Source: a virus. Taken from it: a stretch of DNA of 35,156 nt. The notes beneath the pieces were generated by a model, which worked only from the letters and a program-made list of their open reading frames with translations, searched no databases and was not told the origin of the DNA. Shown here in pieces: positions 6,240 to 26,281 of this stretch. The DNA lies in the IMG/VR virus record IMGVR_UViG_3300046836_000506, positions 1 to 35,156 of that record, one strand, 5' to 3'. Within the stretch, counting starts at the first letter, position 1; each line of letters begins with the position of its first letter. The position numbers and the translations under genes are program-made.

Positions 6240-7834
6240 GCCGCAGCCCTCATAGGGGTAAAAGCAATCATGAGCTGTTTTCGTCGGCTGTTCGACTGCC
6301 GCACTATGTCGATTATGGCAGCAAGAACTGTTACCACCACGCGTGCAGCAAGACGATCTGTACTAAACGGATCGTAGTCAAACTCTATGAGAGGACGGCG
6401 TATGCCTTCGTGCCCCGCGTCGAGGTTCGGCATCACCGGAAAGGCGAAGGTCAGCGCGAGTGCATCAGCCCAGTCGGGCGATGCCACACCGCGCCGCTTC
6501 ATGTCCTCCTTACGTTCGAGCTGTATCTCGTCTCGCGCATTGAACCCGTAGGTCGGCGCGACCAGTTGTTCGGCAAGAGTGTCGTCGTCCTCGATAGCGC
6601 CACCGGCGTCTAGCCACGCCCGCGCAGCCCCCCATATTTCGGCGCGCTTGTTAGCGTAGCTCTCGCCCTGCGAGAGCAGGTCGCCGCGCGACGCCTTACC
6701 GCCGAACTGCACATCGTACACAGAAAGACGAAGCTGTCGGCAACGGTCCACAACACCTCCACCAACACCACCGCCATCAATAAAGATAGCATCGGCGTGG
6801 AGGTGTTGAGACAACTCCACGACTCTTGCGGCGACGGACATGGTATCAAGTCCCCGCAGCCGCACAGCGGGAGTAGTGCGGGCATCGCGGCCCTTCCGCA
6901 CCACGAGGACAGTTTCATCATCACCGAACCTCGCCACGTCAACGCCGATGATTAGGGGGTCGAAGCGCTGCGCAACGGCTTCGCGCTGGCGGGCCTCCGC
7001 CACGGCGTACGCAGATATAAACTCGAGTGCGCCAACCCTGGGAAATACACCCTTGACACGTACTCGGAAAAAGTCCGAGTCATCGCCGTACGCATCTGCC
7101 CAAGCGGCAATCTGCGACTTGTTCGTGAATGATACCTCACGTGCATCGACCTGCGTGGTGTACCATCGCGCGTCGTCGAATGTAGAACGGAAACGACCCG
7201 ACGACCTCGTCGGATTGCCACAAACGAGCCATACCCTCTCAGTGTTCTCATCGGTCAGGAATCCTTCCGAGGTTTCCCATATCACGTCGGGGATGGAGGA
7301 CGCCTCGTCGTAGATCATAAACACGCGGCGGCCCTGATTGTGCAGGCCGGCGAACGCCTCAGGGTTGCGTTCGGACCACGCTACCATATCGACCCGCCAC
7401 GTCTTGGTATGCTCTGGATCGACGGAGAAGATGGAAGTGGCTTCGAGTTTGAAGAGGTCTCGGCCGACGAAGAGGCGGTGCCACTTCGCGAGTTCGGCCC
7501 AGGTCTTAGTTTTTAATTGGGTCTCGGTGTTGGCGGTGACCACGCCCCGAGTGTCAGTCGCAGTGGACAGGGCCCACAAGATGATCCAAGAGACCAGAGC
7601 TGATTTCCCGACACCGTGGCCTGAGGCAACAGCCTCCAGCACAGCCTGTGATGGGGACAGTCCGTTTCCAATGCGAGTGAGGAGATCGGCTTGCCACTGT
7701 TCGGGTCCGCTTCGCGAAGTGAGTTCACCTTGCCCCCACGGGAAAACGGCGCGGACGAACCCGAGTGGGTCCGATGCGAAGGTTGCGAGGAACTCTATGA
7801 GTTCATCGAGGGTGCGGTCGTCGATGTCGATCAT
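6236..7834 (-). CDS. terL: terminase large subunit (packaging ATPase-nuclease)
   Basis: 532 residues from ATG 7834. The frame stays open to 8050, but the upstream part is low-complexity, and ATG 7834 has AGGGG 8 nt before it and overlaps the previous stop as ATGA. ATPase: Walker A SGHGVGKSAL (71-80), Walker B VFMIYDEAS, and a coupling-type motif VCGNPTRSSG. RNase H-like nuclease: IIGVDVARFGDDETV, IFIDGGGVGGGVVDRC and DWADALALTF carry the acidic residues. The enzyme pumps DNA into the prohead and cuts concatemers. A short Arg/Ala-rich tail follows the nuclease. The hairpin at 7842-7881 would hide its ribosome binding site. Confidence 0.95.
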   Translation of the reverse strand: MIDIDDRTLDELIEFLATFASDPLGFVRAVFPWGQGELTSRSGPEQWQADLLTRIGNGLSPSQAVLEAVASGHGVGKSALVSWIILWALSTATDTRGVVTANTETQLKTKTWAELAKWHRLFVGRDLFKLEATSIFSVDPEHTKTWRVDMVAWSERNPEAFAGLHNQGRRVFMIYDEASSIPDVIWETSEGFLTDENTERVWLVCGNPTRSSGRFRSTFDDARWYTTQVDAREVSFTNKSQIAAWADAYGDDSDFFRVRVKGVFPRVGALEFISAYAVAEARQREAVAQRFDPLIIGVDVARFGDDETVLVVRKGRDARTTPAVRLRGLDTMSVAARVVELSQHLHADAIFIDGGGVGGGVVDRCRQLRLSVYDVQFGGKASRGDLLSQGESYANKRAEIWGAARAWLDAGGAIEDDDTLAEQLVAPTYGFNARDEIQLERKEDMKRRGVASPDWADALALTFAFPVMPNLDAGHEGIRRPLIEFDYDPFSTDRLAARVVVTVLAAIIDIVRQSNSRRKQLMIAFTPMRAAA

Positions 7835-21514: not shown

Positions 21515-22801
21515 ATGCCTAGCGGCACCTTTTCATCCTGCCCTCTTGACTTCATCGCCATCCCGCCCCGACAGCGCCAACGGCCCAACCTCTTGGCCGG
21601 CCTCGACCGGCTCGCCGACTCCATATCCCGTCTCGGCCTTCTCCACCCCATCGTCATAACCCGCGAGCACGTCCTAATCGCCGGCGAGCGCCGTCTCGAA
21701 GCGTGCCGCTCTCTTGGCTGGACCAACATCCCGTTTCAGTACGCCGACGAAACCGATCCGCGACTGCTGAAGTGTATGGAACTCGAAGAGAACACGCGTC
21801 GCAAAGACCTCACATGGCAAGAGATCAACGACGCGATGGCCGAGGCATACGCGATCTACAAGGAACTCGAGCCCGAGGCGACGCAGACGCAAATCGCCGA
21901 GCGGATGGGGGAGGATCAAGGGAACCTGTCAGCTCACTTACTGGTGAAGGAGGAGCGAGCGCGCAATCCTGCACTCTCGCGCGAGGATACCTTTCGGACG
22001 GCGCGCGATCGTTCACAGGCAGCTGTGAAGCGGCGGGCCGCCGATGAGGATATGAACATTAATGGACCGTCCATGAATGGATATACACCCTCTGTGCTTT
22101 GCGAAAATTTTTTTAGCTGGGCTCCACAGTACAGCGGCCCAAAATTCAACCTCCTTCATTGCGATTTCCCCTACGGCATTGACTCCCAAAATTCGGCCCA
22201 AAACCCTTCCGGCTACGACGACAGCATGACGGTTTATATGGAACTCATGAAGTGCCTTGCCGTCAATCTAGACAACTTCTGCGCACCATCAGCCCATATG
22301 ATTTTCTGGTTTTCGCCCGGCCGTTACTCCCTGGTATGGGAGAACCTTAAGCTCCTTGATGGCTTCGTTTGGGATGAAGTTCCGCTCGTTTGGTTCAAAT
22401 CAGATAACGCTGGCATAATCCCCGATCTTCGACACCGACCACGCCGCGTGTACGAGACCGCCTTCTTTGGTTGGCGTGGAGGACGCGAACTCTTGCGCGT
22501 GCGCGCCAACATCTTCGCCGCCCCAACCGAACGTCAGAGGCATCCCCATGAAAAATCCGAAACAGCCCTCCAACACTTCTTCTCCATGTGCGTTGATTCC
22601 ACAACAAGACTTCTCGATCCCACTTGCGGATCAGGTTCTGCGCTCCGTGCAGCGAAGAGTCTCGGGGCAAGCGCCGTCCTCGGACTCGAGCGAGACGCAG
22701 GTTATGCCGACGAGGCCCGTCGATCTCTCGTGGGCAGTGGGGGCGGACGATCGACTGGTGATGGTGAGGATTGGGGATCGGTCGAAGTGGATGACGCCTA
22801 A
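21515..22801 (+). CDS. ParB-DNA methyltransferase fusion
   Basis: 428 residues. N-terminal ParB/Srx-like domain (about 8-150: LADSISRLGLLHPIVITR, then IAGERRLEACRSLGW, GERR at 57-60) and an HTH-like segment (TQTQIAERMGEDQGNLSAHL). After a linker comes an amino-methyltransferase in permuted order: motif IV CDFPYG (D217-F-P-Y220), then motif I LLDPTCGSGSAL (D368 onward). Such fusions are known in phages and mobile elements and probably make N6-adenine or N4-cytosine marks. Motif IV here has Phe in place of the usual first Pro. The palindrome at 22062-22074 sits in the linker. Confidence 0.85.
   Translation: MPSGTFSSCPLDFIAIPPRQRQRPNLLAGLDRLADSISRLGLLHPIVITREHVLIAGERRLEACRSLGWTNIPFQYADETDPRLLKCMELEENTRRKDLTWQEINDAMAEAYAIYKELEPEATQTQIAERMGEDQGNLSAHLLVKEERARNPALSREDTFRTARDRSQAAVKRRAADEDMNINGPSMNGYTPSVLCENFFSWAPQYSGPKFNLLHCDFPYGIDSQNSAQNPSGYDDSMTVYMELMKCLAVNLDNFCAPSAHMIFWFSPGRYSLVWENLKLLDGFVWDEVPLVWFKSDNAGIIPDLRHRPRRVYETAFFGWRGGRELLRVRANIFAAPTERQRHPHEKSETALQHFFSMCVDSTTRLLDPTCGSGSALRAAKSLGASAVLGLERDAGYADEARRSLVGSGGGRSTGDGEDWGSVEVDDA
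22062..22074. repeat. palindrome ATGGAC-C-GTCCAT inside ParB-methyltransferase gene
   Basis: Matches 10537-10549 except for the centre base, and is followed by GA-ATGG, again a third half-like unit. It lies in the codons of the interdomain linker. Confidence 0.65.
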
Positions 22802-22856
22802 GGACGCAGTGCAGTTGGCGCACCGCATCCTCCGCGAAGCCGTCGTTATTCTGTGA
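22704..22856 (+). CDS. 50-residue protein nested over the methyltransferase 3' end
   Basis: MPTRPVDLSWAVGADDRLVM, then RSKWMTPKDAVQLAHRILRE: a natural-looking alpha/beta peptide known to me from phages as an uncharacterised small protein. It overlaps the end of the methyltransferase gene by 98 nt in another frame, and its TGA overlaps the GTG of the UDG gene, which supports it. Function unknown. Confidence 0.6.
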   Translation: MPTRPVDLSWAVGADDRLVMVRIGDRSKWMTPKDAVQLAHRILREAVVIL

Positions 22857-23908
22857 CCCGCATCGTCATCATCGGGGAAGCTTGGGGCCGTGATGAAGCG
22901 CCCCTGCGCCGCCCCTTCATCGGCGCATCAGGTCGCCTCCTCAACCAGCTTCTCGAAGAGGCCGGCCTTCTTCCCCTGGGCAGTGCCCGCCGCATTTCGC
23001 CCACTTACAGCAACTTCCTCCATCACGTCAGGGATGAAATCTATGACGCCGCAGGAATCTACCTTACGAACGTACTTAACCTCCATCCACCCGGAAACAA
23101 GATTGCCGATCTATGTGGTCCTCGATGGGGGAATCTTCCGCCTATCAGACCCGGCAAGTACCTACGTGAGGAATACACTCCTCACCTGGAAAGACTACAA
23201 TCCGAACTTCATACTCACCAGCCCAATCTTATTCTCGGACTTGGAGCAACTAGCGTCTGGTTTGGTCTCGGCACTTCGCAGATCGGGCGCTTTCGAGGAG
23301 CAATTGCTCCCTCGAGTTATGGAAAGTTTCTTCCAACATATCATCCAGCGTTCTTGCTTCGCGGAGCCTGGGACCTCCGACCCGTCGTAATCCAAGACCT
23401 CTTCAAGGCCGCCTACGAGGCCGATTTCCCCGAGGTCCGGCGTCCCGCCCGTACCATCTACGTCCCCGAGACCCTTGACGAGATAGAGTTCTGTCTGCGC
23501 GAGTGCGCGACCGGCGACCGTATCTCCATTGATGTAGAGACGGTCGCCGACCAAATAACCTCCATCTCCTTCGCATGGTCGCCCACAGTATGCTGCGTCA
23601 TTCCTATCTTCAAGGGCGGTTACTCGTATTGGCCTCATGATGAGCCCGCCGTCTGGCGTCTGATCGCGCGCTTTTGTGCGCTCCCTGCGCCGAAGGTCGG
23701 CCAGAACTTCATCTACGACATGCGGTTCTTATGGGAACGGTACGGTATCACGGTCTGTAACGTCGCCGACGATACAATGTTGTTGCACCACGCGCTGCAG
23801 CCTGAGCTCCAGAAAGGTCTAGCTTTCTTGGGCAGTATCTACACCAACGAACCTTCTTGGAAACCAAGCTACTCCAAGTCAGGGACGGTGAAACATGAAG
23901 ATACCTGA
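22853..23908 (+). CDS. uracil-DNA glycosylase-like domain fused to 5' part of polymerase exonuclease
   Basis: 351 residues from GTG 22853. Residues 1-190: UDG superfamily (family 4/5-like), with IIGEAWGRDE (6-15), PFIGASGRLLN (21-31) and PTYHPAFLLR (H164). Residues about 205-351: DnaQ-like 3'-5' exonuclease, Exo I SIDVETV (D227, E229) and Exo II GQNFIYDMRFL (N285, D289), then DDTMLLHHALQPELQKGLAF. The protein stops before Exo III, which is found at the start of the polymerase gene 829 nt downstream. Intact UDG-exonuclease-polymerase fusions are known in phages (SPO1 type), so this looks like the front half of a split gene. Confidence 0.82.
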   Translation: MTRIVIIGEAWGRDEAPLRRPFIGASGRLLNQLLEEAGLLPLGSARRISPTYSNFLHHVRDEIYDAAGIYLTNVLNLHPPGNKIADLCGPRWGNLPPIRPGKYLREEYTPHLERLQSELHTHQPNLILGLGATSVWFGLGTSQIGRFRGAIAPSSYGKFLPTYHPAFLLRGAWDLRPVVIQDLFKAAYEADFPEVRRPARTIYVPETLDEIEFCLRECATGDRISIDVETVADQITSISFAWSPTVCCVIPIFKGGYSYWPHDEPAVWRLIARFCALPAPKVGQNFIYDMRFLWERYGITVCNVADDTMLLHHALQPELQKGLAFLGSIYTNEPSWKPSYSKSGTVKHEDT

Positions 23909-24101
23909 CACATTCACCCTTCAGGGGTTGATGGATGCCGAAATATGGTGCCGGGATCCACTCAACCTTAATCATTGGCTCACCGTAGTCGGTAAGAGAA
24001 AGGCAGGTCGCCGTGTCGAATACACCCCTCGTGATAGTCGAGAGCCCCTACAGCGGGGACGTTCCACGGAACATGGAGTACCTCCGAAAGTGTCTCCGTG
24101 A
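23895..24101 (+). CDS. possible small ORF at the polymerase split
   Basis: 68 codons. ATG 23895 overlaps the UDG-exonuclease stop by 14 nt. The first 45 residues (IPDTFTLQGLMDAEIWCRDP, NHWLTVVGKRKAG) look real; the last part overlaps the next gene by 89 nt and is probably shadow. May be a shortened accessory gene. Confidence 0.4.
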   Translation: MKIPDTFTLQGLMDAEIWCRDPLNLNHWLTVVGKRKAGRRVEYTPRDSREPLQRGRSTEHGVPPKVSP

Positions 24102-24360
24102 CTGCATCATGCGAGGCGAGAGTCCTTACGCCTCACACGGCCTGATTCCCGGCGTCCTCGATGACGACATTCCCGCGGAACGTCAGCGCGGCATCGAAGC
24201 CGGCTACGCATGGTGGCAGGTCGCCGACAAGGTTGTGTTCTACACAGACCTCGGTTGGTCTCGGGGGATGACCGCCGCGATGGAGCGCCTCCAGCGCCAG
24301 CCGACCTTCATGCAGGACGGCTACCCGAAGCTACCGTTTGAGATAAGGAAGCTGCCATGA
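24013..24360 (+). CDS. NDT-like (DUF7768-type) protein
   Basis: 115 residues from GTG 24013. VIVESPYSGDVPRNMEYLRK, SHGLIPGVLDDDIPAERQRG and YTDLGWSRGM follow the nucleoside 2-deoxyribosyltransferase-like pattern (SPY-x-GD, N, LDD, P-x-E-R, G-x-S-x-GM). These phage proteins are assumed to bind nucleotides or nucleosides; the real substrate is unknown. It overlaps the Acb1-like gene by 4 nt, so the two are co-translated. Confidence 0.65.
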   Translation: MSNTPLVIVESPYSGDVPRNMEYLRKCLRDCIMRGESPYASHGLIPGVLDDDIPAERQRGIEAGYAWWQVADKVVFYTDLGWSRGMTAAMERLQRQPTFMQDGYPKLPFEIRKLP

Positions 24361-24740
24361 CCATCTATTACGTCGGAGTTGACATTGCACCAGAATCTCA
24401 GTTTAGACTGTGGCATCACTTCGGCTCCTCAATCCGACACCCACATATCACCTTGGCTTATTCAAGGAAATGGTTTGAATACAAACCGGGTAGGTTCTAT
24501 CCTTTAGTAATAGAACCTCCCTTCGAGCTAGAAATACTAAGGGACTTACAGGTACTACGCATGATCAACTCGCGTCTATCCGAGCGACATCTTGAGTTAC
24601 GGGACAGTGGGGCGACATGGGACTTTGACGACTTTCGTATGCATCTTTCAATTTCTCCTGCAGGCATGATACATACTTCACGCATCCCAAATTTCCCCAT
24701 AATAGCTATATCCGAATATTATCAGACTTGGCTCCCATGA
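24357..24740 (+). CDS. 2H phosphoesterase resembling anti-CBASS Acb1
   Basis: 127 residues. Two H-x-T/S motifs: H30-I-T32 in RHPHITLAYSRKW and H96-L-S98 in DFRMHLSIS, separated by 65 residues, with SERHLELRDSGATWDFDDF (75-93) before the second. Two H-x-T/S motifs at this spacing and the GATWDF block match my memory of the phage Acb1 family, which hydrolyses cyclic nucleotide signals of CBASS immunity (T4 Acb1 is 152 residues). An RNA ligase-like 2H enzyme is the alternative. It is A/T-richer than its neighbours and sits inside the split polymerase. Confidence 0.65.
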   Translation: MTIYYVGVDIAPESQFRLWHHFGSSIRHPHITLAYSRKWFEYKPGRFYPLVIEPPFELEILRDLQVLRMINSRLSERHLELRDSGATWDFDDFRMHLSISPAGMIHTSRIPNFPIIAISEYYQTWLP

Positions 24741-26281
24741 AAATCATCCAGACCTCCGACCTCACCCCTTCCCGCTATACCGCCCTCTGGCAGGAGTTCG
24801 ATGTCCGCAACGGCATCGACACGATGGTCACCTACGAAGTTCTCGAGGCTCTGCTCCCACAGCTAACCCCCGTTACGGCCGCGACCTACGCCTTCTCCCG
24901 TTCTTTGCAAGGCCCCATCCTCGAAATGAATATGCGCGGCCTCCGGGTTGATGAGGAGCGCCGCCAACAAGTTCTCCAAGAGTATCGTCTCGGCGTCGTC
25001 CGCCTCACCGATAACCTTAACCGCATCATCCGTGAGGGTATCGGCTGGCAGTTCGAGATAACCAAGAACCGCAAATACGGCTGGCCCTCCGATGACCAGC
25101 TCAAGACCCTGTTCTTCGACGTGCTCGGCATCCCCGAAATCCGCAAGCGCAACACGCAGGGCGAGATGACCCGTACGGTCGATCACGACGCCCTCGAAAA
25201 ACTGGAAGGGTACTTCTATGCAGAGACTATCGTTCGACATATCATCTCTCTCCGAGAACTCGGGAAGAAGATTTCCTTCCTTTCAACTTCAATCGACTCC
25301 GATGGACGACTACGCACGAGCTTTAATATTGCAGGCACTACTACGGGACGACTTGCTTCTTCGTTTTCGGATTTCGGAACAGGAACTAACCTACAGAACG
25401 TGGAAAATCTCCTCCGATCCATCTTCGTCGCCGACCCAGGATACAAATTCTGCAACATCGACCTCGAACAATCTGACGCCCGAGCCGTCGGTGCTATCCA
25501 TTGGAATCTGTTCCGCGATAGCCGCTATCTTGACGCTTGCGAATCAGGTGATCTTCACACTTCCACTGCCCGATCTGGATTTCCTGCGCTTAACTGGAGC
25601 GGCGATCGTCGCGCTGACCGGCAGCTTGCTGATACTAAGTTTTACCGTGAATTTAGCTATCGTGATGCTAGTAAGCGATTGGGTCATGGAACGAATTACC
25701 AAGGGCAACCCGACAAAATGGCCCGTGCCACCCACATCCCCCTCGCCAACATAGTTGCCTTTCAGCGTGCCTACCTCGCCCAGTTTCCTGCCTTCCCGTT
25801 GTGGTGGGAATGGGTAGAGCGTCAAGTCCGCGATGCCCGTCGCATCGTGTCGCTGACCGGCCGCCAGCGTTACTTCTTTGGACACCCGCGCGACCCCGAA
25901 ACGATCCGCAAAGCCGTCGCGTATGAGCCTCAATGCGTCACCGCTGACGTGATCGACCGCGGCCTCCTCGACGTGTGGCGCGGCAATTTCTGCCAGCTCC
26001 TCCTTCAGGTCCACGACTCCATCCTGTTTCAGTTTCCTGCCGACCGCGAGGACGAGATTGTCCCGAAGGCATTGGCGCTCGTGGAGCAGACGTTCCGCTT
26101 AAAAGACGGCCGCGACTTCGTGATACCCGCAGAGGCCAAAGTTGGATGGAATTGGTCAGATTTTCGGTCTGACCAACCAGACCCCGACGCACTAAGGAAA
26201 TTCAATGACACAGACAGACCGCGACTCCGCGCCAGAAAACCACAAAGTGTGCTTGACAGACTCGGAGCGTGCATTAGCTAA
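24737..26281 (+). CDS. polA: family A DNA polymerase carrying the Exo III residue
   Basis: 514 residues from ATG 24737 (ATGA with the Acb1-like stop; a TTG lies 9 nt upstream). Residues 14-45 (LWQEFDVRNGIDTMVTYEVL) contain D28, the Exo III aspartate; the usual Tyr four residues before it is Arg24. Polymerase: motif A NIDLEQSDARAVG (D242), motif B RDASKRLGHGTNYQG (R309, K313, Y321; His317 at the place of E. coli Phe762), motif C LLQVHDSILFQ (H426, D427, Ser in place of Glu883). It should form a working polymerase if it binds the exonuclease half. It overlaps the next gene by 77 nt. Confidence 0.9.
   Translation: MKIIQTSDLTPSRYTALWQEFDVRNGIDTMVTYEVLEALLPQLTPVTAATYAFSRSLQGPILEMNMRGLRVDEERRQQVLQEYRLGVVRLTDNLNRIIREGIGWQFEITKNRKYGWPSDDQLKTLFFDVLGIPEIRKRNTQGEMTRTVDHDALEKLEGYFYAETIVRHIISLRELGKKISFLSTSIDSDGRLRTSFNIAGTTTGRLASSFSDFGTGTNLQNVENLLRSIFVADPGYKFCNIDLEQSDARAVGAIHWNLFRDSRYLDACESGDLHTSTARSGFPALNWSGDRRADRQLADTKFYREFSYRDASKRLGHGTNYQGQPDKMARATHIPLANIVAFQRAYLAQFPAFPLWWEWVERQVRDARRIVSLTGRQRYFFGHPRDPETIRKAVAYEPQCVTADVIDRGLLDVWRGNFCQLLLQVHDSILFQFPADREDEIVPKALALVEQTFRLKDGRDFVIPAEAKVGWNWSDFRSDQPDPDALRKFNDTDRPRLRARKPQSVLDRLGACIS

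Follow-up and report, generated by a model that had tools for sequence, protein, structure and literature searches.

The IMG/VR virus record IMGVR_UViG_3300046836_000506, a stretch of 35,156 bases analysed here over its whole length (the window), contains two genes, A and B, between which the modules of a family A DNA polymerase (PolA) are divided: A encodes a uracil-DNA glycosylase (UDG)-like domain and the first part of a 3'-5' exonuclease domain, and B the last exonuclease motif and the whole polymerase domain. The pair very probably represents an ancient two-subunit PolA, in which the exonuclease site is predicted, from sequence comparison, to be completed in trans by the first helix of B.

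As proposed here, A and B would be two subunits of a single phage DNA polymerase of family A. The UDG-like domain would come from A, as would the beta-sheet core of the exonuclease and three of the four carboxylates that bind its metals; B would contribute the fourth, the Exo III aspartate carried on its first helices, together with a complete polymerase. The N-terminal helices of B are expected to dock into the exonuclease core of A, much as this segment is packed in Klenow, giving one holoenzyme from two chains whose exonuclease would be active only with the polymerase bound. A C-terminal tail on A and an N-terminal leader on B, neither of them present in fused relatives, probably give the junction its shape or keep it together.

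Position of the cut

A sequence-only reading of the window had placed the cut inside the catalytic domain of the exonuclease, with Exo I and Exo II in A and the Exo III aspartate in B. Its open reading frames (ORFs), including those lying between A and B, and its motif positions were borne out by ORF, Pfam and PHROG checks, and the placement of the cut by alignment to E. coli PolA. Pfam matches in A are to UDG (7e-16, residues 2-172) and to DNA_pol_A_exo1 (2e-6, residues 206-332), the latter running from position 5 to position 129 of a 173-position profile and no further; B matches DNA_pol_A (5.5e-28). The DNA polymerase family phrog_17 is tiled by the two halves, A on positions 550-788 and B on 802-1232, with next to nothing missing. 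Within its single chain, A has the UDG-like domain N-terminal to the exonuclease domain, as in polymerases of the SPO1 type.

Profiles of A (49 proteins) and of B (50 proteins) were aligned to E. coli PolA and to the fused polymerase of Microcystis phage Mel-JY34 (MW202489). On E. coli PolA, the exonuclease part of A falls on residues 339-449, with D227, E229, and D289 at D355, E357, and D424 (Exo II of A is N285/D289), and B aligns from residue 496 on, with D28 at D501. On the single Mel-JY34 chain the two profiles align end to end, A ending at residue 343 and B starting at 349, so that the cut lies in a five-residue loop. Neither the tail of A nor the leader of B has a counterpart there, the B profile match beginning at its position 16. 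The DEDDy exonuclease set (Exo I DxE, Exo II D, Exo III D) is thus complete but spread over two genes: whereas Pol I-type enzymes have these motifs in one polypeptide, all split pairs have I and II in A and III in B. In Pol I the Exo I, II, and III carboxylates bind two catalytic metals; because they are divided between A and B, A alone is predicted to be poorly active.

The structure models agree with this division. That of A (AlphaFold) has an overall predicted local distance difference test score (pLDDT) of 88.8, falling below 50 for residues 336-351. Its UDG half aligns to family 4 UDGs with a Z score of about 19 (structure alignment, VIA-align); no exonuclease appears among the matches listed for the second half, UDG matches having filled the list. 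The best Foldseek match to A is the UDG-containing PolA of phiLo (PDB 9qhs), and phage G20c Pol I and Klenow are also matched. B is modeled as a complete Pol I fold (pLDDT 89.9; Z about 30 to the Klenow, Bst, and Taq Pol I structures), and its motif A D242, motif B K313, and motif C D427, invariant wherever present, identify it as a family A polymerase. Exo III is carried by its two N-terminal helices (residues 17-29 and 33-42), which are modeled with lower confidence (70-80). An exonuclease domain without its final helices in A, and a partner offering them in B, is what the models of a complementing pair should look like.

Table 1. Features of the split polymerase locus (positions in the window; counts are of split pairs in which the residue could be scored).
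Feature	Position	Strand	Description
Gene A	22853..23908	+	351 aa, GTG start; UDG-like domain and N-terminal part of PolA 3'-5' exonuclease domain
Exo I, D227 and E229 codons	23531..23539	+	Equivalent to E. coli D355/E357; D in 150/150, E in 150/150
Exo II, D289 codon	23717..23719	+	Equivalent to E. coli D424; D in 151/151
A C-terminal tail, residues 338-351	23864..23905	+	After invariant W336-K337; pLDDT <50, A folded alone
Short ORF	23895..24101	+	68 aa; overlaps end of A; 90-100% identical in L002/L003
NDT-like gene (DUF7768)	24013..24360	+	DUF7768 8e-27; phrog_355, nucleoside 2-deoxyribosyltransferase
Acb1-like gene	24357..24740	+	Anti-CBASS/2H phosphoesterase-like; Pfam Acb1 2.5e-11
Gene B	24737..26281	+	514 aa, ATG start; Exo III segment and complete PolA polymerase domain
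B N-terminal leader, M-x-x-I-x-T-x-x-L-x-P	24737..24781	+	Precedes Exo III helix
Exo III motif R-N-G-I-D (R24...D28)	24806..24820	+	Aligned to E. coli Y497/D501; D28 in 150/150

Recurrence and origin of the split

Hundreds of relatives were retrieved with A and B as queries, and removal of duplicates left 151 loci with both genes: 150 viral or metagenome-assembled genome (MAG) contigs and one cultured phage, Kuura of Caulobacter. All 151 of these distinct pairs are cut at the identical loop, and A lies directly upstream of B at every locus with enough upstream sequence. When GTDB genomes were searched with A, only two short contigs, both from MAGs, were returned, and the host link among members of the split clade is to Caulobacter, for Kuura. 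One further split PolA (L093, 1727-4364; MW202554) is cut after Exo III, its first protein having the complete exonuclease, and was set aside from the count.

The four metal-binding carboxylates are invariant wherever the sequence is present (Table 1), as is D307 of A (151/151), while the proteins diverge to about 40% identity. An automatic scan listed L120, L165, L178, and L234 as exceptions without Exo I or Exo III; these were rejected as products of truncation or of over-strict patterns. Both genes are under purifying selection: the ratio of nonsynonymous to synonymous substitution rates (dN/dS) between the window and L003 is 0.11 in A and 0.045 in B. The ends at the junction are conserved as well. 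A stops 9-18 residues (median 14) beyond the invariant Trp-Lys in 151/151 pairs, its tail ending in Lys-(Lys/Arg)-(Glu/Asp)-(Asp/Glu), with a Lys in the penultimate region in all scored pairs; in the leader of B, T6 is conserved in 97% of pairs, I4 in 77%, and L9 in 69%.

Phage relatives with UDG, exonuclease, and polymerase in one chain, expected from the sequence-only reading, were indeed found: Mel-JY34 (MW202489), L087, and most of L236-L315 have the same modules in one ORF, and the loci examined around fused relatives (n = 87) are mostly a single ORF. In a tree that combined 31 split with 32 fused enzymes (a quick search with midpoint root, with one long fused branch, L087), the split enzymes fall on one side of a branch with a Shimodaira-Hasegawa-like approximate likelihood ratio test (SH-aLRT) support of 99, so that one change of state is needed. 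Because the fused form is that of bacterial Pol I and of most sister phages, the simplest reading is that the split arose once, from a fused gene, in the ancestor of the phage clade.

The distance between the two genes is far less constant than the cut. Gap lengths across the 151 loci run from -4 to 3,314 nucleotides (nt), with nine at or below 24 nt (L015, L108, L126, L205, L211, L221, L222, L224, and L228); several of these nine have overlapping stop and start codons, for example TAATG in L015. NDT-like genes, of DUF7768 or DUF1937 types, are found in 74 gaps, HNH genes in 18, both in 12, and neither in 71. In the window the gap is 828 nt, holding three ORFs in the same orientation that overlap end to end (Table 1), and the ATG of B overlaps the stop of the Acb1-like gene (ATGA). 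In L003, whose B is 98% identical to that of the window, an unrelated stretch of about 180 nt takes the place of the Acb1-like gene. From this difference, and from the variability of the gap genes generally, it appears that gap contents turn over fast and the split does not. The sequence-only reading took the cassette of accessory genes as what splits the gene. This is not supported: the split is old and shared by the whole clade, and the contents of the gap vary, can be exchanged, and at some loci are missing. The gap has the look of an insertion site that is tolerated, and the intervening genes look like passengers rather than what keeps the gene split.

How the gene was first split is a separate question, compatible with a two-subunit enzyme. 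It could be that an HNH homing endonuclease in the loop made the first cut and was later replaced by NDT-like or other genes, a suggestion that is plausible enough to keep in mind but somewhat on the doubtful side. In its favor, HNH genes are present in 18 of the 151 gaps, and homing endonucleases split nrdA of phage Aeh1 and gene 60 of T4 (PMC2988022). On the other hand, most gaps are without HNH genes, and NDT-like genes are four times commoner there; in three fused relatives (L092, L259, and L283) the polymerase is closely preceded by an NDT-like gene, which makes rearrangement without homing another possibility.

Proposed assembly of the two chains, and alternatives

The claim that two polypeptides have to meet to complete one active site is supported, and conservation across the 151 pairs strengthens it well beyond what a single sequence could show; the physical assembly itself is inferred. 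Some observations weigh against it. DEDDy enzymes have a tyrosine four residues before the Exo III aspartate (E. coli Y497), and this is Tyr in 147/150 pairs, but Arg in the window (24806-24808) and in two near-identical relatives, L002 and L003, a change that may weaken proofreading in the window phage; this tyrosine contributes less to activity than the metal-binding carboxylates do. Mutual information between the chains is highest for the N-terminal third of B with the exonuclease domain of A, but also with its UDG domain. Exo III could, moreover, be retained for the folding of B instead of for catalysis.

Taken further, the last point would mean that no exonuclease is assembled at all: A would act alone, mainly as a UDG or DNA binder, B would be a polymerase without proofreading, and Exo III would be structural. 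The Arg of the window phage would fit, as would the confident folding of B on its own in the model and the UDG-like motif residues of A, which are fairly conserved. A dead exonuclease would, however, be expected to lose its metal-binding carboxylates, which are strictly invariant on both chains over deep divergence, and the Exo III aspartate of B is invariant whereas neighboring leader residues vary. This explanation is therefore considered improbable.

The halves could also conceivably be rejoined, by a group I or II intron, by trans-splicing of the mRNAs, or by a split intein joining the proteins. Phage polymerase genes often contain introns and inteins: the PolB of phage MIJ3 is in two parts with a putative split intein (PMC6892783), and gene B of L034 carries an in-frame intein-like insert (about 6957-7805, CLTEDHEVLT...ITGN) within polymerase motif B. 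At the junction itself there is little to suggest such a mechanism. Rfam gave no intron match at the gathering score in the window, only two chance-level matches at the junction with a relaxed E-value, and no intron match in 13 relatives; the gaps of -4 to 24 nt in nine relatives leave no space for an intron. A extends too few residues past its last exonuclease residues for an N-intein and has a fixed, conserved, charged C terminus, and B has its own conserved start codon and leader; no split intein was found at the junction, as judged by this lack of room in A and not from intein profiles, which were not run. RNA splicing, which the sequence-only reading had offered as its alternative, is contradicted by these results, and rejoining in any of the forms named is very improbable. 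Joining of A and B by frameshifting was also considered and rejected, being conceivable only for touching genes such as those of L015; other gaps are many dozens to thousands of nt.

The different gaps of close relatives might raise the suspicion of an error in sequencing or assembly, or of a gene in decay that a cassette has recently interrupted, but the identical cut in 151 distinct pairs from many metagenomes and cultured Kuura refutes error, and purifying selection on both genes, with B keeping its own start and leader, leaves decay next to no probability.

If A and B do form a two-subunit enzyme, the split could have been kept because it is useful: an exonuclease-free polymerase and a UDG-exonuclease-polymerase holoenzyme might differ in the amounts made or in their timing, proofreading being turned on by subunit binding and the NDT-like protein acting in the same step, by nucleotide supply or base modification. 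This is rather speculative, and unlikely.

Intervening genes and other split polymerases

The slot between the two polymerase genes shows a strong association with NDT-superfamily genes. The Acb1-like gene, present in the window and missing from the near-identical L003, is possibly a counter-defense gene moving through this slot. The short ORF overlapping the end of A has no Pfam or PHROG match. Directly upstream of A (21515-22801) is a ParB-like domain fused to an N6/N4-methyltransferase-like domain.

Fused enzymes of the SPO1 type, such as those of Mel-JY34 and phiLo, have the same modules in the same order as A plus B, differing in being one chain with no A tail, no B leader, and no gap. 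Polymerases in two genes are known from other phages. In Aeromonas phages 25 and 44RR a replicative polymerase is likewise encoded by two genes, 43A and 43B; the comparison made here is one of gene arrangement. The 43A and 43B proteins of phage 25 co-purify and have polymerase activity, but they are of family B, and close relatives have a seg endonuclease or intercistronic untranslated sequence (PMC2988022). The marine OM43 phages MEP401 and MEP402, and most related genomes, have a PolA divided over two ORFs that flank a small one, but there the exonuclease is reported to be uncut, with the N-terminal part of the polymerase in the same ORF and the C-terminal part in the other (PMC10580990). 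In Pseudomonas phage LUZ24 the PolA pieces (gp25, exonuclease subunit; gp34, polymerase part II; gp36) are kilobases apart, with HNH/endonuclease VII genes; unlike A, gp25 has complete Exo I-III motifs (DLEGDG, NILDYD, YCLQDG), so that the cut is at a domain boundary. A second recurrent cut was also seen, in the sister family with fused exonuclease, just after ...NLQNI(P/T) and before palm motif A (L296, L302, L303, L304, L305, L307, L308, L311, L314, and L315); its gaps include overlaps and reach about 900 nt, and the cut is possibly that of the MEP401 type.

Split phage polymerases are therefore not new in themselves; what appears new is a cut that is conserved and passes through the active site of the exonuclease, of which no report was found among the PolA and PolB splits in the literature (subscription papers and preprints lay outside the search). 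A cultured example is available in Kuura (OQ067476), a Caulobacter podovirus with the same cut and 687 nt from the A stop to the B match, which the tree places with the split clade. The passages found in the paper on this phage mention one DNA polymerase and no split (PMC9959647), and the A gene of Kuura carries the label hypothetical protein, a warning for the annotation of such genes.

If the assembly is as proposed, these phages would have a natural, ancient, and widespread proofreading site divided over two polypeptides, with every catalytic residue kept. They would offer a ready system, including cultured Kuura, for the study of how split enzymes survive, of control of proofreading by subunit assembly, and of replication genes as landing sites for accessory genes.

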